28,174 nt of DNA from a virus: the IMG/VR virus record IMGVR_UViG_3300030090_002232, positions 592 to 28,765 of that record; one strand, given 5' to 3'. The position numbers were made by a program, and so were the translations under genes. Below, piece by piece: positions 12,011-28,174 of the stretch. The notes beneath the pieces were generated by a model, which worked only from the letters and a program-made list of their open reading frames with translations, was not told the origin of the DNA and did not search any database. Within the stretch, counting starts at the first letter, position 1, and each line of letters opens with the position of its first letter.

Positions 12011-12386
12011 AATTAATATTGATGACTTTAAAAAAGGAATAATTGATGCTGTAAAGCATATGTCAAGAGGAAATACTGACGATGAATTAAGTGAGAAAAA
12101 GGATATGCAATCAGTAAAACGCTTTGTTTTAGACATTGTGGGAAATGATACTTCTACTTCTTATGCAGAGGGCTTTGAGTTTGGAATAGAATTGACAAAG
12201 GAGGGAGGCATTATTGAAACCGAAGAAGAAAAAGATATAGCTAGATTTTTTATGGAAGCTGGTGCCGAGAGTCTGTTTGGGGAGGACTTAATTTCTCAAG
12301 TAAAAGCGGAAGACCAATCAACAGAAGAAGGATTTTGGGATAATAGACCTGACATTGATAAATTATTAGATGACAAAGAAGAATGA
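12000..12386 (+). CDS. Hypothetical acidic protein
   Basis: 128 residues starting MKTKINIDDF. I chose the ATG at 12000 because AAGGAG (11987-11992) lies 7 nt upstream; a longer in-frame start at 11958 would overlap the previous gene by more and has no ribosome binding site. The protein is mainly helical and acidic, especially the C-terminal half (DIDKLLDDKEE). No catalytic motif, membrane segment or known family recognised. It overlaps the next gene by 4 nt (ATGA type), so translation is coupled. Confidence 0.65.
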   Translation: MKTKINIDDFKKGIIDAVKHMSRGNTDDELSEKKDMQSVKRFVLDIVGNDTSTSYAEGFEFGIELTKEGGIIETEEEKDIARFFMEAGAESLFGEDLISQVKAEDQSTEEGFWDNRPDIDKLLDDKEE

Positions 12387-12826
12387 TAACTAAGAAAAAA
12401 TACGAACTAAATAAAAACTTTTCACACGACTTGATACTTGGTGAAATAAGGGAAAAAAAGCTGGCTGAGATACTAGCAAATAAACCAATTGAAGTTAAAA
12501 CTGAAATGGGTGTGTGGCAAGAAAAAGGGAATTTAGCAATAGAAATAGAGTTTGATGGTGAGCCTAGTGGATTATATAAAACGCATTCTGAATATTGGTG
12601 GCACAACTTAGAAGTTAGAAATGAAGCATATATGTCTTTATTTTTTAAAGTAGATATTTTGAAAGCAATTGTAAAGAAAATTGAAGACAAATACCCACAC
12701 CGAATAGTTATGGGTGGAGATGACAACCTAAGTAAATTGGTGTTAGTTCCATTAGCAGGATTGTTTTTTCTAAAAGAAAAAGATTTAAACTGGCGAGAAG
12801 CGCCGGCAAACAAAAAAGGAGAGTAA
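12383..12826 (+). CDS. Possible PD-(D/E)XK-fold nuclease
   Basis: 147 residues. The stretch EIREKKLAEIL, then IEVKTE (Glu37, Lys39), then GNLAIEIEFDGEPSG (Glu54, Glu56) followed by THSEYWWHNL resembles the core of small phage PD-(D/E)XK proteins: a helix with Glu, an E-x-K strand and a further acidic strand. The remainder is a helical and beta C-terminal half ending in a basic, polar tail. The start overlaps the previous stop (ATGATAA) and is coupled. It lies just upstream of the RecA-like and other nuclease genes, which fits a DNA repair or recombination role. The fold call is tentative. Confidence 0.5.
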   Translation: MITKKKYELNKNFSHDLILGEIREKKLAEILANKPIEVKTEMGVWQEKGNLAIEIEFDGEPSGLYKTHSEYWWHNLEVRNEAYMSLFFKVDILKAIVKKIEDKYPHRIVMGGDDNLSKLVLVPLAGLFFLKEKDLNWREAPANKKGE

Positions 12827-13290: not shown

Positions 13291-14224
13291 AAATGCTGAA
13301 GATGCTATTGAAAAACTTTTAAAAAACAAAGATTTAAATTTTCAAAAAGGTGACAGCAATGATTTTGTAACAAATCGAATACCTTTTAATATACCAGCGT
13401 TAGATAAACTTACTGGAGGGGGCATACCATTCAAGAAAATGACTCTTATATATGGTCCGACCAATGTAGGGAAGTCTTATTTAGCATCACAGATAGTTGT
13501 AAATGCTCAGAAAATGGGAGGTAAAGCTGTTTGGATAGACACAGAGCTTTCATATGATAAAGATTGGATGAGAACCTGTGGGGTTGATGACCAAAAGATA
13601 CTTGTGTCTCAACCAACTACCGGAGAAGAAGCTTTAGAACACGTTCGACAAGCAATGATAAATGGTTTTGAGGTTATAGTATTAGATAGTATAGCTGGTC
13701 TTGTGCCAACAAATATATTAGAAGAAGAATTTGGTAAAAGCCCAATGGCGTGGCAATCAAGGTTTGTAAACACAGCGTTCCCTAGATTATTTCCACATCT
13801 CCAAAATGGTTCAGCTTTTGTTGCTATAAACCAAGTACGTGCTAGTATGGGTCCTGTAGCATTAGACGCAATGCCAGCAGGTCAAGGACAAGTGTTCTTT
13901 TCTCATTCTATTTTGCAAGTGCAGCGAAAGGGTTGGATAACAGAAGGAGATAAAAAAGTAGGGTTTGATATGAATATCAGATTACGAAAAACTAAAACAG
14001 GTGGTGAAAACTGGGATTCAGCTATTGTTCCGTTTAGGGTAGAAGGTGGAATTGATGTTCTTGAAAGTTATATTCGGGATGCAGTAGACCAAAAATTAAT
14101 TATACAAAAAGGCGCTTGGTATACTTATGGTGACATAAAAGCTATGGGCCTAAATGGTATAAAAGGAAAGTTTTTAGAGGATGATAAACTGTTTGAAAAG
14201 CTTCAAGATGAACTTACCTCCTAG
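13283..14224 (+). CDS. RecA/UvsX-like recombinase
   Basis: 313 residues. Walker A is GPTNVGKS (58-65). WIDTELSYD (84-92) places Glu88 where RecA has its catalytic Glu, VIVLDSIAGL (131-140) is Walker B, and AINQVRASMG (181-190) fits the NQ-R segment before the second DNA-binding loop. The N-terminus has NIPALDKLTGGGIP, as in RecA/RadA. It should form filaments on ssDNA and drive strand exchange for recombination-dependent replication and repair. It is shorter than RecA (about 350) or UvsX (about 390). The neighbours are nucleases and a RuvC-like resolvase, giving a recombination operon. AAGGAG precedes the ATG. Confidence 0.85.
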   Translation: MDKNAEDAIEKLLKNKDLNFQKGDSNDFVTNRIPFNIPALDKLTGGGIPFKKMTLIYGPTNVGKSYLASQIVVNAQKMGGKAVWIDTELSYDKDWMRTCGVDDQKILVSQPTTGEEALEHVRQAMINGFEVIVLDSIAGLVPTNILEEEFGKSPMAWQSRFVNTAFPRLFPHLQNGSAFVAINQVRASMGPVALDAMPAGQGQVFFSHSILQVQRKGWITEGDKKVGFDMNIRLRKTKTGGENWDSAIVPFRVEGGIDVLESYIRDAVDQKLIIQKGAWYTYGDIKAMGLNGIKGKFLEDDKLFEKLQDELTS

Positions 14225-14513
14225 AGATTTTACTGAACAGGAACTTATTATAGCTAAATGTTTAGATGAGTTTGGACTTAGATACGATGAGCAAGTTTAC
14301 TACCATCCTTATATAGTAGATTTCTACATACCAGAGATAAAAATGGTAGTTGAGGCTGATGGAATATATGGGCATCTTTCTAAAAGAGACGCGCAGAGAG
14401 ATAAAGAACTGCTATTATTAGAAGATATTGAGTATATTATACATATAAAAGAAAAAACACAAGAAAAAGTAAAGGAAAAATTATGGCTGGAATTAAACAA
14501 ATTAAGCCAATAG
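14208..14513 (+). CDS. DUF559/Vsr-like endonuclease
   Basis: 101 residues from the ATG at 14208; an in-frame ATG at 14181 is possible but has AGAGG directly against it with no spacing. It overlaps the recA-like gene by 17 nt. YIVDFYIPEIKMVVEADGIYGH carries Asp38, Glu49, Asp51 and a His, followed by RDAQRDKELL, which is the DUF559 / very-short-patch-repair pattern (vDf...vEvDG..H......R...RD..L). These small PD-(D/E)XK-fold enzymes nick or cut DNA. Given the context, it probably acts in recombination or repair. Confidence 0.7.
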   Translation: MNLPPRDFTEQELIIAKCLDEFGLRYDEQVYYHPYIVDFYIPEIKMVVEADGIYGHLSKRDAQRDKELLLLEDIEYIIHIKEKTQEKVKEKLWLELNKLSQ

Positions 14514-18822: not shown

Positions 18823-20739
18823 ATGATATTAAAAGATAAATCAAACCCAATTACTGAACAAGCGGAAGTTATATTAAATCATAGGTATTATTTAAAAGAT
18901 AAACAGGGTGATGTCATTGAAGATTCTTCTCAATTATTTCAAAGAGTAGCTGACGCTATATCTAAAGTCGATGTTGACTATGGTAAGTTACCTGTAGATG
19001 CAGAACTTACTTCTAAAGAGTTTTATACTATTATGTCTAATTTAGAGTTTATTCCAAACTCCCCAACTCTTATGAATGCAGGGACTGAGCAAGGGACACT
19101 ATCTGCTTGTTTTGTTTTGCCTTTAGAGGATAGTATGGAAGGAATAATGAAAGCAGCACACGATGCCGCAATGGTTCAAAAATTTGGAGGTGGAACCGGG
19201 TTTGCTTTATCTAAGTTAAGACCAAAAGGAGATAAAATTCAATCTACTCATGGGATTGCCTGTGGGCCTATAGAAGTACTAAAGACACTTTCAAGAGTGT
19301 CATCTATGATAACCCAAGGTGGAAAAAGAGATGGCGCGAATATGGCAGTTATGTCTATATACCACCCAAATATTTTAGAATTTATTGACTGTAAAAAAGT
19401 TGAAGGTGAAATACATAACTTTAATATTTCGGTTGGGGTAGATTCAAACTTTATGAAAGCTGTTGAAAGTGGCAGTGAATATAATTTAATAAACCCTAAA
19501 GATAACACAATAGCTGGGAAACTAGATGCTCGAGAAGTGTTTAGTAAAATAGTATATGGCGCTTGGAGAAATGGTGAACCCGGAATGATATTCCTAGACC
19601 AAGTAAATAAAGATAATCACGTATCAGAAACATATGGAGAAATGATTGCTACAAACCCATGTGGCGAGCAACCACTACTGGGTAATGAGTCTTGCAACCT
19701 AGGTTCTATAAACTTAGCAAAATTTTATCAAAAAGCTGATGAAGGAAGTTCGTTTGGTTGGAACGATAAAATAGACTGGCCTCGATTAGAGAACGTGACA
19801 AGAAAGTCAGTTCATTTCCTAGATAACGTAATAGACGCAAACAAGTATGCTACACCTGAAATAGAGCACATGACTAAATCTACCAGAAAAATAGGTCTAG
19901 GTATAATGGGGTTTGCTGATTTATTAATACAAATGCATATCCCATATAATTCTGAATTAGCTAGAGAAGTAGGAGAAAGAGTTATGTCTAAGGTACGAGA
20001 GTGGGCAGACGACGAATCAAAAGTTTTAGCTAAGAGTAGAGGAGCCTTTCCAGCTTGGAAAGATAGTAATTATAATAAAGAAACAGAAGTCTACAGGAAT
20101 CATTGTAGACTAACAGTTGCTCCAACAGGAACTATATCAATGATAGCCGATACATCTAGTGGGATTGAACCTACATTTGCATTGGCTTGGAAAAAACAAA
20201 ACATATTAGAAGGTAAAACTTTGAATTATGTAAACAAGTATTTTGAAGCAGATGCTATAAAACATGGATTTCATTCAGAAGATTTAATGGACTATTTAGC
20301 AGAAGGCGGTTCATTAGCCACCGTACCCGAGGTACCAGACTGGGCTAAGGCTGTTTATGCTACAGCGCCTGACATTTCTCCTGAAGACCACGTACTGATG
20401 CAATCAGCTTTCCAAAGCTCTTGTGATTCGGGAATCTCTAAAACAATTAACTTTTCAAACTCAGCTACAATTGAAGATGTTGAAGATGCTTATATGTTAG
20501 CGTGGAAAGAAGGGTGTAAGGGAATTACTGTATACAGAGCGGGAAGTCGAGAGAAAGAAGTACTGGTAAAAGGTAATCAAGAAAAAGCCGAACAACCAAC
20601 ACTGGATGGTTTTGAAATAGAGGAAGCTCTTATAAATAAACCAACCCATATAAAATGTTGTAATAATCCTAATGTAGTTTTTGCTGATGGGTGCGAGACA
20701 TGCAAAACCTGTGGGTGGAGCGCCTGTCTAATTGCCTAG
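18823..20739 (+). CDS. nrdJ: Adenosylcobalamin-dependent (class II) ribonucleotide reductase
   Basis: 638 residues. It reduces ribonucleotides to deoxyribonucleotides using adenosylcobalamin, feeding phage DNA synthesis. Class II hallmarks: [18 protein letters not shown] with the first active-site Cys, [33 protein letters not shown] (split here; the radical Cys and conserved Glu lie in NPCGEQ and the segment after it) and [18 protein letters not shown]. The C-terminus carries paired Cys ([13 protein letters not shown]), which relay electrons to the active site. There is no ATP-cone at the N-terminus and no small-subunit gene beside it, both consistent with class II. AAGGAG lies 10 nt before the ATG. 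It stands between terminase and portal. Confidence 0.9.
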
Positions 20740-20747
20740 GAGGTAAC

Positions 20748-20969
20748 ATGGACAAAGAACAAAGAACTAACTTCGATAACACATTTTATAATCATCAGGA
20801 GGAAATGAAAGGCATATCTGCGATTTTAGACACTCAAGAAGATTTGAAAGAACAAATTGTATTGTTATCAGAAAAAGTAGATAAACTAACTCTTTTGTTT
20901 ACTGATTTACAAGAGAAATATGTGCATCAAAACAATCAACTTCGCCAAGAATTAACAGGTAGAAGATAA
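20748..20969 (+). CDS. Small coiled-coil protein
   Basis: 73 residues from the ATG at 20748, chosen because AGGAGGT (20738-20744) immediately precedes it and overlaps the end of the reductase gene. Residues about 28-68 show heptad-like Leu/Ile spacing (LKEQIVLLSEKVDKLTLLFTD), so a coiled coil is likely. The protein is hydrophilic, without a signal peptide or catalytic motif. It is the first gene of the head block. A structural or assembly role is a guess from position. Confidence 0.65.
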   Translation: MDKEQRTNFDNTFYNHQEEMKGISAILDTQEDLKEQIVLLSEKVDKLTLLFTDLQEKYVHQNNQLRQELTGRR

Positions 20970-20982
20970 ATATAAAAATTAT

Positions 20983-20990
20983 AGTATAAT
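20983..20990 (+). promoter_or_regulatory. Promoter-like -10 element (AGTATAAT) before the head module
   Basis: TATAAT at 20985-20990 lies in a 51-nt AT-rich gap upstream of the gene at 21021, which has its own AGGAGA ribosome binding site. No convincing -35 box is seen at 16-18 bp. The octamer AGTATAAT recurs at 25388 and 26232. Confidence 0.45.
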
Positions 20991-21020
20991 ATAAAGACAG
21001 AAAAGAATTAGGAGAAGTTT

Positions 21021-21467
21021 ATGGTAATTGGTAATATGTTATCAAATTCAGGACAGCAGTATGTAGCTACTAAAGATGATAAGAATACTTGGAGAATATT
21101 AGACACTTGGCATGCAGAGTTAAAAAATATGAATGCCGATGATGATATTTCTGACGATAATCCAGCTGTAGTAGCTTTATCTGAGGGTCAATTTATTGCC
21201 CTAATAAAGGAAGCTGCAAGTGAAGGAGTATTAGAGAATGTTAATATTACTTCTGATGTCGATACAGCTGAACTAGAATACGAAATAGACACTAAAAATA
21301 GTAAGATAGTAGAGTTAGAAGATAAAATAAAACAACTTACTTCAGAGAAACACGAAGTTGAAATAAAAGCTTCTCATTCTGAAGAGTTTGAACTAAAAGA
21401 AAAAGCTATGGATAACATACTAAAACTAGTATCCATGCAGGATATGACTAAACTAAGTAGGGATTAA
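21021..21467 (+). CDS. Hypothetical head-module protein with coiled coil
   Basis: 148 residues, ATG with AGGAGA 5 nt upstream. The N-terminal half is acidic and mixed (NADDDISDDNPAVV). Residues about 90-120 are a charged coiled coil (IVELEDKIKQLTSEKHEVEIK), followed by another helix. It is placed 2 nt before the portal gene, so it may be a capsid assembly or portal-associated protein. No family recognised. Confidence 0.65.
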   Translation: MVIGNMLSNSGQQYVATKDDKNTWRILDTWHAELKNMNADDDISDDNPAVVALSEGQFIALIKEAASEGVLENVNITSDVDTAELEYEIDTKNSKIVELEDKIKQLTSEKHEVEIKASHSEEFELKEKAMDNILKLVSMQDMTKLSRD

Positions 21468-21469
21468 TA

Positions 21470-23416
21470 ATGAAATTATCCGAATATATGCCTCAAGTGC
21501 CCCAAATGCAACAGCAAATGGCCGACTTGAACAAACAAATAAGTTTGCTTGAAGTTATGAAGTCTACTGGTGACACTGGTGCTGCGCCTACTATAGGACT
21601 TGACCAAATTGTTAATACATGGGTACGTCATCAAATGGCATACAGGCAACAGCTTGTACAAGACTTACAAACTATTGCAATGTCAGTCGAAGAAATCAGA
21701 GGGCCTGTATCTCACATTACAAGTGAGGTCTTTAGAAGAGGAATACAAATCCACCCTACGACTGATAACCCCGACCCGGAAGAAAGAAAAAGACTAAATA
21801 CGTGGTTAGCTGACTGTAACCTATTTGACCAATCTATAGAAGAAGTTCTTAGACAATTTCATCACGATTTAAATACTTTAGATGATGCCTTTATTTATTT
21901 AGCTAGGGAATACAAGGATGAGGGGGATGGTAAAATAACTTCGCGTCTTCGAGAAATAAGAAGACTAAATCCAGCACTAGTAGAATTTGACTTAGACCAA
22001 GCTGGGTTACCTAAAAACGCACACTGGATATGTTTGGTACACAGAGAAGTAGTTTCTGAGGATAAAGGTAAATGTGAAGATGATGGTTGTAAGGCTGAAA
22101 TGGTCCCAGCTATGTACAAATATTACCATAGAAACTCCCACTTATATTTTACAGATGATGAAGTAATTCATTTATCTAAGTTCTCACCATCTGAAACATA
22201 CGGATGGTCACCATTACTTACTATTTTTGAAAAGGCTTTGACGCTAGTAGGTATGGATAAGAACTTATATAGGTATTTTTATGAGAGAAAAATGCCGGCA
22301 AGTATGTTGATGGTAACTACAGATGACCCAGAGTCATTACGTAGAGAACGAGAACACATTGCAGCACAAACTAGGATGGACCCAAACTATATACCTATGG
22401 TAGCTGTATCTGCTAGAAACCAAAGAGGCAGAGTAGATATGGTAAGACTATTCCATACACTAAATGAAATGGATTATTTACCCGTAAGAGATGAGATAAG
22501 AGAACGTGTAGCTGCTATGTGGGGTGTTACACCGGCTTGGCAGGGTGCTCCAGAAGCATTTGGCGGACTATCTACACAAACACAACAACTAGTGGTTATG
22601 AGTCGGGTGGTTGAAGGAGACCAAAGATTATTTCACGAAAAAGTATTTCCTAAATTATTAAAAGCTTTTGGTATAGAAGGATATAAACTTGAATTACCTC
22701 AACCTGAAGAAAAAGCTGATTCTACTAGATTGGCTTTAGCTCAACAGAAAATAGCAATAGCTAATCAGTTTGCACAACTTGGGTTTGACCTTCAATTAAA
22801 AGAACAAGATGTTGATTTATATGATGCTGAGTTTATGATAAGCGGTAAACCTGTACAACTAGCTAGAATGCAGGCAGAACAACAGGCATTGAATTTAGCT
22901 CAAATGCAACAACAAATGGTTCAACAGGAAGAAATGGCTGCTCAACAGGAACAAATGCAAGAAGAGATTCAAAGCGAAGCTAATGAGGGTGAACCTGCTG
23001 AAGGAGAGCCTGTACAAGCTATGGAAAAGGCTTACAAGCCGCCATCACAAAGAAAATTTAAAGGGAGAACTGGTGGTGTAACCCCAGACTGGCATGATAA
23101 ATCCCCAGACGAAGAAAGAGATATTGACGAGTGGGCAGAAGCGCGGTCAAAAAATATATATTTATCTAAAAACTGGGTTGAATCTTTGAATGAAAAAGGT
23201 TTTGTTATGCCTATAATAAAACAAGTCTCTCCTGATATGGATAAAATATGGTTTGTAGATAACAATACAGACTATGTAGCTAATTTATCTGGAAGTAATA
23301 TAGTTCATGTAGAAAAAGCTATGTTCGGAGATGCCACTAGATTTAGTAGAAATAAACAAGAAAATCCAAAAGCAACGGAACCAACAAAAATTGATATAGA
23401 CGATGACCAAACTTAA
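21470..23416 (+). CDS. Portal protein
   Basis: 648 residues. The crown-to-stem region reads DEVIHLSKFSPSETYGWSPL (230-249), where YG-x-SPL is the typical portal motif before the long helices. IPMVAVSAR and RVAAMWGVTPAW (346-357) match the later portal core. A dodecameric ring at one vertex is the known role, forming the DNA channel and docking terminase. Residues 181-212 contain Cys188, Cys202 and Cys207, possibly a small metal site. From about 463 to 500 comes a Gln/Met-rich helix, then an acidic linker (GEPAEGEPVQ), and a separate C-terminal domain of about 110 residues beyond the usual portal end. ATG follows the previous stop by 2 nt; ribosome binding is weak (TAGGGA). Confidence 0.85.
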   Translation: MKLSEYMPQVPQMQQQMADLNKQISLLEVMKSTGDTGAAPTIGLDQIVNTWVRHQMAYRQQLVQDLQTIAMSVEEIRGPVSHITSEVFRRGIQIHPTTDNPDPEERKRLNTWLADCNLFDQSIEEVLRQFHHDLNTLDDAFIYLAREYKDEGDGKITSRLREIRRLNPALVEFDLDQAGLPKNAHWICLVHREVVSEDKGKCEDDGCKAEMVPAMYKYYHRNSHLYFTDDEVIHLSKFSPSETYGWSPLLTIFEKALTLVGMDKNLYRYFYERKMPASMLMVTTDDPESLRREREHIAAQTRMDPNYIPMVAVSARNQRGRVDMVRLFHTLNEMDYLPVRDEIRERVAAMWGVTPAWQGAPEAFGGLSTQTQQLVVMSRVVEGDQRLFHEKVFPKLLKAFGIEGYKLELPQPEEKADSTRLALAQQKIAIANQFAQLGFDLQLKEQDVDLYDAEFMISGKPVQLARMQAEQQALNLAQMQQQMVQQEEMAAQQEQMQEEIQSEANEGEPAEGEPVQAMEKAYKPPSQRKFKGRTGGVTPDWHDKSPDEERDIDEWAEARSKNIYLSKNWVESLNEKGFVMPIIKQVSPDMDKIWFVDNNTDYVANLSGSNIVHVEKAMFGDATRFSRNKQENPKATEPTKIDIDDDQT

Positions 23417-23981
23417 TAAAGGACAAGTAAATGGTAAGAAATTCTCTTATGATGATGATGGTCTAAGAGACGCTATTGCATATGCTACTAAATTAATGCA
23501 AGATAAAAAAGCAGTTGATTTTCAATGGCATGATGAATACGAGAAATCTCTTTCTAAAGAAGGTGGAGATGGTGGCGGTGGTAATGGTAGTGGCTCTTTC
23601 GGTGGAGGCACAGTTGCAGTATCCTCAGACTCTGGCTTTTTTACCCCTACTTATGGGGGCAGTGGTAAGAGAAAGAAACGCAGGAAAAAAACTGGCATAG
23701 ACAAATTATCTGATTTTGTTACAAACAATTCTCCAGAAAGAAAATCAATAGAAAAAAGTGAGATACTTGATTTTGTTGCTTGGGTAGAAAAAGAATATAA
23801 AAATAGAGAGACTGTTTTCCCAAGTGGGGAGACTATAAATCCCCAAATTCCAAGAGTAGATTACAAAAAAAGATGGGGTTCTAGTCAGTACGACTCTTTA
23901 GCTGCAGGAGGCTCAAAAGACAAAGAGGCTCAAGAAGTTCAAGAGTTAGACGAGGAAACCGAAAACATCCCATTCAAGTAG
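23403..23981 (+). CDS. Hypothetical Gly-rich head-module protein
   Basis: 192 residues, overlapping the portal gene by 14 nt. It has three parts: an N-terminal helix (about 1-50), a low-complexity Gly/Ser stretch with a strongly basic patch (GKRKKRRKK, near residue 90), and an acidic, helical C-terminus. It carries one copy of the hydrophobic-x-K-S motif (IEKS) seen in the scaffold and portal. No catalytic motif, signal peptide or membrane helix. The basic patch could contact DNA. Position suggests a minor head protein. Confidence 0.6.
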   Translation: MTKLNKGQVNGKKFSYDDDGLRDAIAYATKLMQDKKAVDFQWHDEYEKSLSKEGGDGGGGNGSGSFGGGTVAVSSDSGFFTPTYGGSGKRKKRRKKTGIDKLSDFVTNNSPERKSIEKSEILDFVAWVEKEYKNRETVFPSGETINPQIPRVDYKKRWGSSQYDSLAAGGSKDKEAQEVQELDEETENIPFK

Positions 23982-23987
23982 GTAAAG

Positions 23988-24296
23988 TTGAAAAATAATT
24001 CATTATATGCTAAACTATGCCCTAAGTGCAGTGGGCACATGTTTTTAAACGAAGATGAAGATTTACAGTGTATAACCTGTGGTAAAAGATTAGTAAGGAG
24101 AGTAGAGTTTGAGTACGATACCCGAGAAGGTAAAATCCGAGATAATAAAAAGAAGGCGCTTAGGGGCGACGTGGACAGCAATCAGCAACTGGTTACTGAA
24201 AGAACACGAAGTGGAAGTTCACCGGATAACAATTCAGCGCTGGTACGACAGAGAATGTTCCGAAGTAGAGGACGAGGCCTTACTTTTAGGAGATAA
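23988..24296 (+). CDS. Zinc-ribbon protein
   Basis: TTG start with TAGGTAAAG just upstream; 102 codons to the stop. The first 40 residues form a clear zinc ribbon: Cys11-x2-Cys14 and Cys28-x2-Cys31 (LCPKCSGHMF ... LQCITCGKRL). From about codon 41 on the frame overlaps the next gene by 188 nt and reads as an Arg/Ser-rich sequence (RTRSGSSPDNNS) that looks like a by-product of the other frame. The useful protein is therefore probably the ribbon with an uninformative tail, or the ribbon once belonged to the downstream HTH-phosphoesterase. Confidence 0.55.
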   Translation: MKNNSLYAKLCPKCSGHMFLNEDEDLQCITCGKRLVRRVEFEYDTREGKIRDNKKKALRGDVDSNQQLVTERTRSGSSPDNNSALVRQRMFRSRGRGLTFRR

Positions 24297-24819
24297 CGTT
24301 TCTGAAAGAGTAAAGCTTGATAAAAAAATAGCCACTCATAAAGGGGAGGCTAATTTCTATAAAAAACTTTACGAAACTTCTTTAAAAGACTCAGCTAAAA
24401 AAGAACTTATTGTTGAAACAATACAAGAGTACACAAAAGCCTTTCCGTCAGTTCCTTTAAGGCAATCTGAAAATACTAAAAATAATCCATTCGGAGAGAA
24501 AAGCCAAACTATGGTTGCTCCTTTATCTGACACTCACATAGGAGAACATGTATTCAAAGACCAAATGGGCGGCTTGAATGAGTATAACTTCGAGATATTT
24601 AATAAACGTATGTATGGTTGGGTGAACGAAATATTAAAGCACGCTTCGTATAGAAGACAAGCGGTGCCTGTAGACGAACTAATTATACCTATGCTAGGTG
24701 ACATGATTAGTGGAGACATACACGAAGAGTTAGCTAGGTCTAATATGGCTAACTGTATGGAACAAATGATTAGAGGAGCTAGTATTATTGGACAAGCTTT
24801 GGTAATCATGGAAGGATGA
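24109..24819 (+). CDS. HTH + metallophosphoesterase, N-terminal part (frame-disrupted)
   Basis: 236 codons, TTG start with AAGGAG (24095-24100) 8 nt upstream. Residues 1-50 form a helix-turn-helix (IKRRRLGATWTAISNWL ... ITIQRWYDR). A helical linker follows to about 110. Residues 135-205 begin a calcineurin-like phosphoesterase: LSDTHIGEH (Asp141, His143) and MLGDMISGDIHEE (Asp198). The frame then ends at 24819, before the GNH(D/E) motif. That motif is present in the DNA as GNHGR at 24801-24815 in the -1 frame, continuous with the next reading frame. So the two reading frames are parts of one ancestral enzyme. See the finding on the disruption. Confidence 0.7.
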   Translation: MSTIPEKVKSEIIKRRRLGATWTAISNWLLKEHEVEVHRITIQRWYDRECSEVEDEALLLGDNVSERVKLDKKIATHKGEANFYKKLYETSLKDSAKKELIVETIQEYTKAFPSVPLRQSENTKNNPFGEKSQTMVAPLSDTHIGEHVFKDQMGGLNEYNFEIFNKRMYGWVNEILKHASYRRQAVPVDELIIPMLGDMISGDIHEELARSNMANCMEQMIRGASIIGQALVIMEG

Positions 24820-25394
24820 CAAGAAAGCCACCTATGAAGGATAAGTATATGGATTGGGATTATATGCTGTATCAATGGATGGCCTCCTTTTGTAGAAACC
24901 AAGAAAACATAGAGTTTCATATTCCCAAAAGCTTTTACACTACATTTAAAGTACACGACCAAGTAGTTCTTATTACACATGGAGATTGTATATCAGGGGC
25001 GGGTAGTAGTGGAGCAATAACAAATTCAATGACTAAACTAAGAAGTGTTTTTCAATATAAAAAAACTTTGCAAAGAGAAATAGAAGATGCTTCAGATAAA
25101 GACGCAGAGGTAGAGTTTGATAGTGTTATGATGGGACACTTTCATAGGGTTGATGAAATAGATATAGGTACAGGAGTATTACTTATCTGTGGAACTATGA
25201 AAGGTCCAGACGAGTTTGCCTTGCAACGACTACAAGCAGCTACTAAACCAAAACAAATAATTACTTTTTGGCACCCACAAGATGGTTATAAAAGCAGAGA
25301 AATTATATCTTTAAATAAATATGACACAAGCAAAAGAAAATTTATAGACAAGATTCCTGAGAAGTGGATGGATTTAGAGCAAACGTCAGTATAA
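24816..25394 (+). CDS. Metallophosphoesterase, C-terminal part (frame-disrupted)
   Basis: 192 codons from ATG at 24816, which overlaps the stop of the N-terminal part (ATGA). The frame extends upstream through GNHGR (24801-24815), so the true join lies before this ATG. The remaining calcineurin-like metal ligands are here: LITHGD (His55) and MMGHFHR (His108, His110). The protein ends with a beta-rich strand set, WHPQDGYKSREII. A reinitiated product would lack the DTH, GD and GNH motifs and should be inactive alone unless it assembles with the N-terminal part. A substrate cannot be read from the sequence. Confidence 0.65.
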   Translation: MTRKPPMKDKYMDWDYMLYQWMASFCRNQENIEFHIPKSFYTTFKVHDQVVLITHGDCISGAGSSGAITNSMTKLRSVFQYKKTLQREIEDASDKDAEVEFDSVMMGHFHRVDEIDIGTGVLLICGTMKGPDEFALQRLQAATKPKQIITFWHPQDGYKSREIISLNKYDTSKRKFIDKIPEKWMDLEQTSV

Positions 25395-25395
25395 T
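25388..25395 (+). promoter_or_regulatory. -10 element of a predicted leaderless gene (AGTATAAT)
   Basis: TATAAT at 25390-25395 overlaps the stop of the phosphoesterase C-part. A standard -10 to +1 distance gives a start at 25402, the A of the next ATG, which has no Shine-Dalgarno. No good -35 box is seen. Confidence 0.45.
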
Positions 25396-25401
25396 AATAC
25401 T

Positions 25402-25950
25402 ATGGCTACCATTTCCCGACAAGAAGCATTTGAAATTTATAAGAAACTTGAAAAAGCTTTTAGGGCGTGGTGGACACAATTAGCAGAAGACACTTTTAAA
25501 ATTGCTCAAAATAAAGATGCTGGATTTGTACCCTATAAATCAGGTGACCTACAAAAATCTGGATATAAAGTTATAAGAGACACGAGTTTTAGTATAGGAT
25601 ATTCTGCTCCGTATGCTGGAGAAGTGTATAACCCTGACAAATATTTTGTTGGTTATGAAACTGCCCCACATACATCTGAGGTTCAACCATATATTAGACA
25701 AGGGAAACCTGTAAAAGGGCACTCAAAAACATATCAAAAAATTGGGCAGCGTCCTTGGAAGCTAAAAAATGGTCAGTGGAGGACGATTGACATAAATAAA
25801 GCCCGCGCAAATAGACCTAAAAATGAATGGATACAAAGGGCTTGGGCAGCAGTATATGAAGGGATTCATCCCAAAGACCGGAAAGCTTTAGGCTTAAAGA
25901 AAAGAGTTCCAGTACAATTCCCACAAAGTAGAATAAATTGGAGACAATAA
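25402..25950 (+). CDS. HK97 gp10-like head-tail protein
   Basis: 182 residues. The stretch VPYKSGDLQKSGYKVIRDTSFSIGYSAPYAGEVY (43-76, quoted in parts here: SGDLQKS, then FSIGYSAPYA) is the pattern of HK97-gp10-like tail-completion/minor capsid proteins: G-x-L-x-x-S, then a strand ending in pYA. An N-terminal helix and a basic C-terminal part (KKRVPVQFP) follow the same plan. Members help join head and tail. ATG without a ribosome binding site, behind a TATAAT element. Located between portal and scaffold genes, which fits. Confidence 0.65.
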   Translation: MATISRQEAFEIYKKLEKAFRAWWTQLAEDTFKIAQNKDAGFVPYKSGDLQKSGYKVIRDTSFSIGYSAPYAGEVYNPDKYFVGYETAPHTSEVQPYIRQGKPVKGHSKTYQKIGQRPWKLKNGQWRTIDINKARANRPKNEWIQRAWAAVYEGIHPKDRKALGLKKRVPVQFPQSRINWRQ

Positions 25951-25965
25951 ACATAGGAGATAGAA

Positions 25966-26166
25966 ATGGACAAAGACACAAGTATAGTAACACCAGAACA
26001 AGAGTATATATTCGCCAGACATTCTAAAATGGTGGGTAGAGTGCTAGACCAAGTGGAAGCAGCGCTTCCTGAAGGCAATCAATGCGAGAAAGTAAAGAAA
26101 CTAATACAAAATATTCTTTATGATTTTCGTAATGAAATGCTAGAAATGATTGCAAAAGAGCAATAA
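25966..26166 (+). CDS. Small helical hypothetical protein
   Basis: 66 residues, ATG with TAGGAGA about 6 nt upstream. The protein is mainly helical, with a C-terminal amphipathic helix (KLIQNILYDFRNEMLEMI). It has one Cys and no motif. It is the last gene before the terminator-like hairpin and the promoter region of the scaffold-capsid block. No family recognised. Confidence 0.6.
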   Translation: MDKDTSIVTPEQEYIFARHSKMVGRVLDQVEAALPEGNQCEKVKKLIQNILYDFRNEMLEMIAKEQ

Positions 26167-26194
26167 ATTCTAATTTATAATATATTTCTATTAT

Positions 26195-26221
26195 AAAATT
26201 CTACATCTCAGTAGGATTTTT
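26195..26221 (+). terminator. Candidate intrinsic terminator
   Basis: A 10-bp stem (26195-26204 with 26211-26220, one T-G wobble) closes a 6-nt loop, ATCTCA. The right arm runs into TTTTT (26217-26221). GC content of the stem is low, so strength is uncertain. It lies 28 nt after the last gene of the upstream block. Confidence 0.5.
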
Positions 26222-26231
26222 CGATTTCCGT

Positions 26232-26239
26232 AGTATAAT
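26232..26239 (+). promoter_or_regulatory. Promoter-like -10 element before scaffold/capsid genes (AGTATAAT)
   Basis: TATAAT at 26234-26239, just after the terminator-like hairpin. A start near 26246 would give a leader of about 109 nt before the scaffold ATG. No consensus -35 box is visible, and the octamer also occurs at 20983 and 25388. A second TATAAT at 26176-26181 lies before the hairpin and is less likely to drive the capsid genes. Confidence 0.5.
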
Positions 26240-26251
26240 GTAGTAACGTTT

Positions 26252-26269
26252 AAATATAACGTTATATTT
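26252..26269. repeat. 18-bp perfect palindrome (possible operator or 5' mRNA hairpin)
   Basis: AAATATAACGTTATATTT is its own reverse complement. AACGTT occurs at its centre and again at 26245-26250. Lying about 6 nt after the predicted transcription start, it could bind a dimeric regulator or fold as a hairpin at the mRNA 5' end. Confidence 0.7.
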
Positions 26270-26282
26270 CCCGATACATAGT

Positions 26283-26310
26283 AAGGTCGGAGGTGGCTTA
26301 GACCAACCTT
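26283..26310 (+). promoter_or_regulatory. Imperfect stem-loop in the scaffold gene leader
   Basis: AAGGT-c-GG pairs with CC-a-ACCTT (26283-26290 with 26303-26310) around a 12-nt loop that contains GGTGG, and the right arm is followed by two more T. It lies 45 nt before the scaffold ATG. It may be a structured leader element or a weak terminator; I recognise no riboswitch class in it. Confidence 0.35.
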
Positions 26311-26354
26311 TTATGAAAGCTGGGAGCAAATAATAATCATAGGAGGTTAATACT

Positions 26355-27206
26355 ATGGCAGACATCTCAGAAAGAATTGAGAAGCAGATGGAAGGCACAA
26401 ACCTCGCTCTTGCCGCAGTAGCTGAAGTTCTACAAAAAATGGACAGCAGATTACTAAAGGAAGAGGAAGATGAAGAAGAAGAGATTTCAAAGGCTGCAGC
26501 TGAACAAGCACAAGCAGAACTAGTGAAGTCTGTTGCTTCCGAGGTTGTTTCTATGTTAAAAGCTAGTGAAGGTGACAGTTATGCTGGTGCTGACGTTAGC
26601 GGTGACGAAAGAAAAGCCGCCCCAACTGGTGGGACACCACAAAACGCTGATGACTCTGAAAGTGATGCAGGAATAGATGCAAAAATCGAGGAACAGCAAA
26701 ACACAATACAAGCTGCAGACATGGGCGATGACGACGAAGATGAAATCGAAAAAGCTTATGGAAGAGGATATGCGGCTGCAATGAAAAAAGGTCATGATGA
26801 TGACGATAAGGATGGAATGGAAAAAGCACATGACGATGAGTCAGCTGATGAACCAGTAGCAGAGAAGGGTATGGACGATGATGACGATGACATGGACAAA
26901 ATGCAGAAGCAAATAGAATCTTTGAAGAAGCAAATTGCTGAAACAGAGACAAATATGCAGAAAGCAGTCCAAACAGAATCTGAAGCAAGACTAAGAAAAA
27001 TGGGATTCAGAGAGGAAACTGGATTACAAGCTCCAAAAGCAGTTAACGGATTGGGCGTAGATGGTTCTACACCTATACAAAAATCTACTGCTATTGAAGA
27101 CACACCAGCTCAACTAGCTGAACTTTCTTATTCAGAGCTCAGAAGAATGCAACACCAAATAGAAACTGGAAATACCGATGGTATTCCTAGGGAACTATTA
27201 GGATAA
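26355..27206 (+). CDS. Probable capsid scaffolding protein
   Basis: 283 residues, with AGGAGGT (26341-26347) 7 nt before the ATG. It is highly acidic: Glu-rich at 36-43 and Asp runs at 124-129, 148-151 and 174-179. Helical segments flank it (7-70) and a coiled coil runs at about 180-210 (MQKQIESLKKQIAETE). The gene sits directly before the major capsid gene, the usual place of a scaffold, and the elongated, charged, helical make-up fits. No protease motif is visible. Seven short hydrophobic-x-K-A/S repeats (such as IEKA, MEKA, MQKA) punctuate it. A strong ribosome binding site and a dedicated promoter region suggest high late expression. Confidence 0.65.
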   Translation: MADISERIEKQMEGTNLALAAVAEVLQKMDSRLLKEEEDEEEEISKAAAEQAQAELVKSVASEVVSMLKASEGDSYAGADVSGDERKAAPTGGTPQNADDSESDAGIDAKIEEQQNTIQAADMGDDDEDEIEKAYGRGYAAAMKKGHDDDDKDGMEKAHDDESADEPVAEKGMDDDDDDMDKMQKQIESLKKQIAETETNMQKAVQTESEARLRKMGFREETGLQAPKAVNGLGVDGSTPIQKSTAIEDTPAQLAELSYSELRRMQHQIETGNTDGIPRELLG

Positions 27207-27234
27207 TTAAAACAAACTATAGGAGATTATAAAC

Positions 27235-28174
27235 ATGGCTAATCCAAGTTTAAGTGAATATCTGTCGCAGTCTCAAAGAGGTTTGTACCAGTCCATATTC
27301 GGCCCAGACTATTTGTCAAAAACAGGGTTGGGTGCTGGTACTAGTTTCACAGTAGATACTGCTACAGGTATATTCAACACAACATATGGAAGAAAAGTTT
27401 GGCAAGCACTAAACAACCAAACTAGATTCTTCAATGCTATCCCAAGAGTGGTTTGGGGTAACACAGCTGGTTGGAGGGTAAGAACTGATAGAGGTTCTGG
27501 CCGTTCAAGACCAGTAACTGAAACTGGAAGTTTGCCAACAGTAGACGTTTCCAACATAGAAACAATTTCTAGTTTACCTAGAATAGTTTCAACTACATTC
27601 GGTGCTTCAGTGAAATCAGTATTCACTGCGCAATTAGAAGGTGGTGTTGGTGATGTTCTTGCGTTGGAAAATGAAAACGCTCAGTTAGACCACGTAAAAG
27701 AAATAAACGAAGAGCTACTAGCGGGTTCAGCGTATATTGTTTCTGGTGGTGCCGCAGGTTCATTTACAGTTCCTGCATCAATCGCCACCCACTTTAAAGT
27801 AGGTGACAAGGTCGCAATGTATGACCAAAGTGCTACTTCACACAAAAGAACTTCTGGTTCTGCTGTAAGCAGTGTTTCAGGTACTACAGTAAACGTTGCT
27901 GATGGAGCAGGCAGTGATAACTTTGCTGACAGTGACGTTGCTTACATTTTCTCGAGAGCGGGTATGACATCTATTGATGATATTGTTTCTGAAGATGGAG
28001 CTGCAGTTGGTGGGCAAGAAGCTAACACAAGAGCTTATGACTTAACACTATCTGGCAGAACCGCTGGTGCGTGGAACGCAGGTGCTTCTGTTTCTTATAA
28101 CTCAGGAACAGGGAGGGCACTAAGTCTAAACTTGTTAGACACAGCAATCCAAAAAATAAGAGAGAATGGTGGAG
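27235..28174 (+). CDS. Major capsid protein, HK97-like (5' part, runs off the window)
   Basis: 313 codons from the ATG at 27235 (AGGAG at 27221-27225), open to the window edge. The N-terminus (MANPSLSEYLSQSQRG) and the pattern NNQTRFFNAIPRVVWGNTAGWRVRTDRG ... (quoted in parts: FFNAIPRV, then TAGWRVRTDRG) resemble phage HK97-type capsid proteins, with a helical and E-loop-like region followed by ENENAQLDHVKEINEELL, probably the spine helix. Residues about 182-245 form a Ser/Gly/Val beta-rich stretch (FKVGDKVAMYDQS ... GTTVNVADG) that looks like an inserted domain. The call rests mainly on position after the scaffold-like gene and on this plan. Confidence 0.75.
   Translation, partial: MANPSLSEYLSQSQRGLYQSIFGPDYLSKTGLGAGTSFTVDTATGIFNTTYGRKVWQALNNQTRFFNAIPRVVWGNTAGWRVRTDRGSGRSRPVTETGSLPTVDVSNIETISSLPRIVSTTFGASVKSVFTAQLEGGVGDVLALENENAQLDHVKEINEELLAGSAYIVSGGAAGSFTVPASIATHFKVGDKVAMYDQSATSHKRTSGSAVSSVSGTTVNVADGAGSDNFADSDVAYIFSRAGMTSIDDIVSEDGAAVGGQEANTRAYDLTLSGRTAGAWNAGASVSYNSGTGRALSLNLLDTAIQKIRENGG

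Follow-up and report, generated by a model that had tools for sequence, protein, structure and literature searches.

Calcineurin-like metallophosphoesterases of PHROG 284, a profile named 'exonuclease', are SbcD/Mre11-like phage proteins in which the motifs D-x-H, GD, GNH, H and GHxH follow one another in this order within one polypeptide. Intact relatives read DTH, LGD, GNHGR, HGD and GHFH at these positions, and the predicted fold of the intact L002 protein is like those of PolD DP1, Mre11 and VPS29. They are usually encoded by a single ORF of ~ 445 aa, and a nuclease activity is putative, being taken from the name of the profile. Among named phages, the cyanophages S-CBS1 and KBS-S-2A and phages of Parabacteroides and Staphylococcus have DNA repair exonuclease genes that are homologous over 67–90% of the intact protein, at just 22–28% identity. 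A full-length relative with 44% identity (L162) is present in JACOXG010000010.1, a contig of a groundwater candidate-phylum genome (Candidatus Daviesbacteria MAG), which is possibly a prophage or a misbinned phage contig. Titles and the opening lines of abstracts gave no report of recoding in a phage metallophosphoesterase.

The window analysed here is a stretch of 28,174 nucleotides from an uncultivated tailed-phage contig in IMG/VR (28,765 bases), in which a gene for such a metallophosphoesterase, a probable nuclease of PHROG 284, is spread over two frames. The contig encodes a sigma factor-like protein, replicative helicase, primase, DNA polymerase, UvsX-like recombinase, Cas4-like exonuclease, RuvC-like resolvase, terminase, ribonucleotide reductase and portal. 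A small DUF559/Vsr-like endonuclease ORF (14181–14513) lies between the recombinase and the Cas4-like exonuclease and overlaps both. No close relative at the DNA level was found among 50,697 named phage records; the terminase shows weak similarity (25%) to those of Bacteroides phages, and the nearest named relatives of the portal (21470–23416) are the haloarchaeal tailed viruses HVTV-1, HCTV-1 and HCTV-5 (27% identity). The phosphoesterase gene sits between the portal and a minor head-like protein. The order terminase, reductase, portal, zinc-ribbon ORF, phosphoesterase, minor head-like protein is common to the window and to the IMG/VR phages compared (L002, L018, L032 and others), which differ from the window in that the phosphoesterase is intact in every contig covering it fully.

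The zinc-ribbon ORF (23988–24296) and the 5′ part of the phosphoesterase gene (24109 onward) have 188 nt in common, read in the +1 frame; in the relatives examined (L002–L081) an overlap of 158–206 nt is kept. Codon-position diversity indicates that all positions are constrained, as if in both frames, for the first ∼ 13 codons only, after which the phosphoesterase-frame profile alone is seen, so most of the tail of the zinc-ribbon ORF looks unselected. A Shine–Dalgarno-like motif lies 5′ of the phosphoesterase start in 64 of the 73 gene sequences assessed; having its own motif favours an independent start over a fusion to the zinc ribbon. The features of the interrupted gene are collected in Table 1.

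Table 1. Positions of the features of the interrupted phosphoesterase gene in the window.
Feature	Coordinates	Strand	Description
RBS AAGGAG and TTG start of the phosphoesterase gene	24095..24111	+	Inside the upstream zinc-ribbon ORF
N-terminal metallophosphoesterase fragment	24109..24819	+	236 aa; helix-turn-helix-like N-terminus, DTH, LGDM, out-of-frame tail VIMEG, TGA
Deletion junction	24798..24801	+	Lacks 49 nt that every intact relative has; ends in shared TTG
GNHGR metal-binding motif codons, GGTAATCATGGAAGG	24801..24815	+	Downstream frame, 5′ of its ATG; outside both ORFs
C-terminal metallophosphoesterase fragment	24816..25394	+	192 aa; HGD and GHFH; phrog_284

The upstream fragment shares 98% identity with the N-terminal half of the intact protein of the closest relative, L002, and ends in a TGA at 24817–24819; the downstream fragment is 100% identical to the L002 protein over its 192 aa. 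Both halves match the phrog_284 profile in order and in register (positions 19–221 with an E-value of 2.7e-19, and 256–386 with 1.9e-17). Codons for all five motifs are present in the window, but GNHGR lies in neither ORF; the ordered set that is complete within one protein in the intact family is thus broken here. This is the layout that the original prediction had described, with DTH and GD in a frame stopping at 24819, HGD and GHFH in the next, and GNHGR in the downstream frame ahead of its ATG, preceded by the residues YYWTSF; all of it is borne out by the ORFs. Neither half matched in a Pfam search, and the intact L002 protein gave a sub-threshold match to Metallophos_2 only. The Pfam model PF00149 detected no second metallophosphoesterase in the contig, a weak test, since intact L002 itself lies below the Pfam cut-offs. 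The split layout at 24109–25394 is not due to chance; it represents a single gene with a 49-nt gap.

The relatives give the size of the lesion. An IMG/VR viral-contig search with the downstream half as query gave 80 loci out of 197 matches. The whole gene lies inside the contig in 71 of these 80 and is a single open frame in all 71; of the other nine, eight run off the end of their contig and one starts after the motif. A second search with alignment enlarged the set to 75 distinct gene sequences, each one open ORF, and 67 distinct proteins. The LGDM–GNHGR spacing is exactly 52 codons (156 nt) in every one of the 67, compared with 107 nt in the window. The suspicion that GD and GNH stand too close together, through loss of tens of bases with a frame change, was thus well founded, and the homolog alignment that had been proposed as a check returns a loss of 16 residues (MYLAPHFTKIKVPCVV in L002) plus one base. 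The same single 49-nt gap is seen directly when the window is aligned with L002, in which the gene is intact and which is 92% identical over 8.4 kb; within this comparison it is the sole frame-breaking gap inside a conserved gene. Across 19834–28174, blocks a few hundred bases long alternate in their identity to L002, from ∼ 79% to 100%, a strong mosaicism.

At the site itself, L002 reads GGACAAGCCTTG, then ATGTACTTAGCC...GTAGTT, then GGTAATCATGG, and the window reads GGACAAGCTTTGGTAATCATGG. The gap begins after one TTG and ends after a second, so that three bases are common to its ends and the breakpoint can be placed only to within a few bases. We regard these shared bases as a microhomology signature. 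A hairpin able to drive slippage is unsupported, the predicted fold of the deleted stretch being weaker than that of its shuffles (z = +1.28). The junction is also similar to a stretch common in cloning vectors (AAGCTT...GTAATCATGG); vector trimming was considered and dropped, as conserved codons in the relatives explain all of it.

A predicted structure of the intact L002 protein (mean pLDDT 75) was used to place the missing residues, 233–248. They cover the end of helix 214–238 and strand 241–247, directly before GNHGR, and A236, P237, H238, P245, C246, V247 and V248 are invariant among 33 aligned relatives. In this model the GNHGR metal motif sits on the core β-strand that is lost. Sequence searches of the PDB returned no metallophosphoesterase. 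In a fold search with the L002 model the best PDB matches were metallophosphoesterases, the PolD DP1 exonuclease coming first and VPS29 and Mre11 near the top. Compared with its PHROG 284 relatives, the window copy is without the 49 nt, and hence without the strand leading into GNHGR and without a single frame.

The two halves differ from L002 by 2 nonsynonymous and 11 synonymous changes, against ∼ 22 nonsynonymous changes expected on the branch of the window had it been neutral throughout since the split from L002. Both halves look fully constrained, and the small number of nonsynonymous changes indicates that the gene kept its function until a very recent time, or keeps it now. All other ORFs in the window are open, and all but one have matches in relatives that are themselves close to full length and cover most of the ORF; divergence is seen in the tail-fibre ORF, and ORF 12383–12826, unmatched in the loci compared, has a PHROG match. 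No second broken gene was seen when all ORFs of the window were compared with relatives. The locus thus combines one lesion, an otherwise constrained gene and intact relatives, as in a recent deletion pseudogene. On these comparisons the break is either young or artefactual.

The reading we favour, with a probability of about 0.6, is that the virus itself suffered a recent deletion of 49 nt that left a null allele. The deletion would have occurred between two TTG trinucleotides, probably by replication slippage or end joining at microhomology, and would have removed the last helix turns and the core β-strand leading into GNHGR while changing the reading frame. Translation would stop five codons past the deletion (VIMEG, TGA), and any translation of the downstream ORF would have to begin at the inherited ATG, giving a product without GNHGR; a null allele of very recent origin would result. 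We prefer this to an artefact because a graph assembler would probably not be misled by an overlap of three bases: ordinary k-mer graph collapse needs a longer overlap. An artefact nevertheless keeps a substantial, if smaller, share of the probability. The contig may combine two strain variants or derive from a chimeric amplification product, the 49 nt having dropped out at the join while the gene is intact in the living virus. As an assembled virus contig the record is fragmentary, and its junction occurs in this contig alone among the IMG/VR contigs searched; the single match to the junction pattern, L083, was rejected as a second carrier because its sequence is unrelated. Neither half shows relaxed selection, and one edge of the mosaic blocks that run throughout 19.8–28.2 kb relative to L002 coincides with the junction. 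Against a join of this kind, L002 is the best long-range relative on both sides, the right flank at 24978–25391 being identical to it, and the absence of any other break in the window argues that the assembly is not generally error-prone. Closer in, the 110 nt to the left of the junction match L002 and L019, and the 60 nt to its right match L008/L009 exactly and better than L002, which counts against a real deletion. The deletion thus lies near a local strain switch that a chimeric join could also have produced; natural recombination and a chimeric join fit this switch alike.

Explanations in which the interrupted gene still works fare much worse. It is improbable that the virus truly lives with the allele and that coupled fragments keep a non-catalytic role, e.g. 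structural or DNA-binding, in head assembly, though such a role is consistent with the place of the gene between portal and minor head genes. A functional split enzyme, in which stop/start-coupled translation yields two polypeptides that assemble, is less credible still. The ATGA overlap (24816–24819) to which the original prediction pointed is present, and both halves remain constrained. However, GNHGR and its preceding strand are in neither polypeptide, and the intact relatives have the same ATGA as ordinary codons for a conserved M-T after GNHGR, so the overlap is inherited from the intact gene and is not an adaptation. The sequence CATGGAAGG before the ATG is fixed by the GNHGR codons and lies too close for a normal ribosome-binding site. 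No two-gene split occurs among the fully covered relatives (71 loci, 67 proteins), and the proposal of a true split is disfavoured by this comparison. Least credible of all is programmed −1 frameshifting that restores one protein. The downstream frame is indeed −1 relative to the upstream one and GNHGR is preserved in it, but a fused product would still be without ∼ 16 residues, including the core strand, in a spacing that is invariant among the 67 proteins. As first noticed, there is no slippery heptamer at the join, and the intact relatives, with their single frame, need no shift. Recoding and a working split enzyme are both unlikely because a frameshift cannot restore the strand and a coupled second ORF would also be without GNHGR. 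Thus, of the four options originally listed, split gene and recoding are disfavoured, and recent inactivation and assembly error both remain.

We conclude that either the gene was broken recently in an ordinary way or the assembly slipped at this point, recoding or a natural split being unlikely. The finding itself is of little weight: single viral contigs commonly contain deletions that break a frame, and these are often artefacts. Its use is in striking out one possible case of recoding or of a split enzyme, and in showing that this phage family holds exactly 52 codons between two metal motifs in 67 distinct proteins. In the source virus population, the 49-nt gap would be a clear marker for a null allele of an otherwise strictly kept gene.
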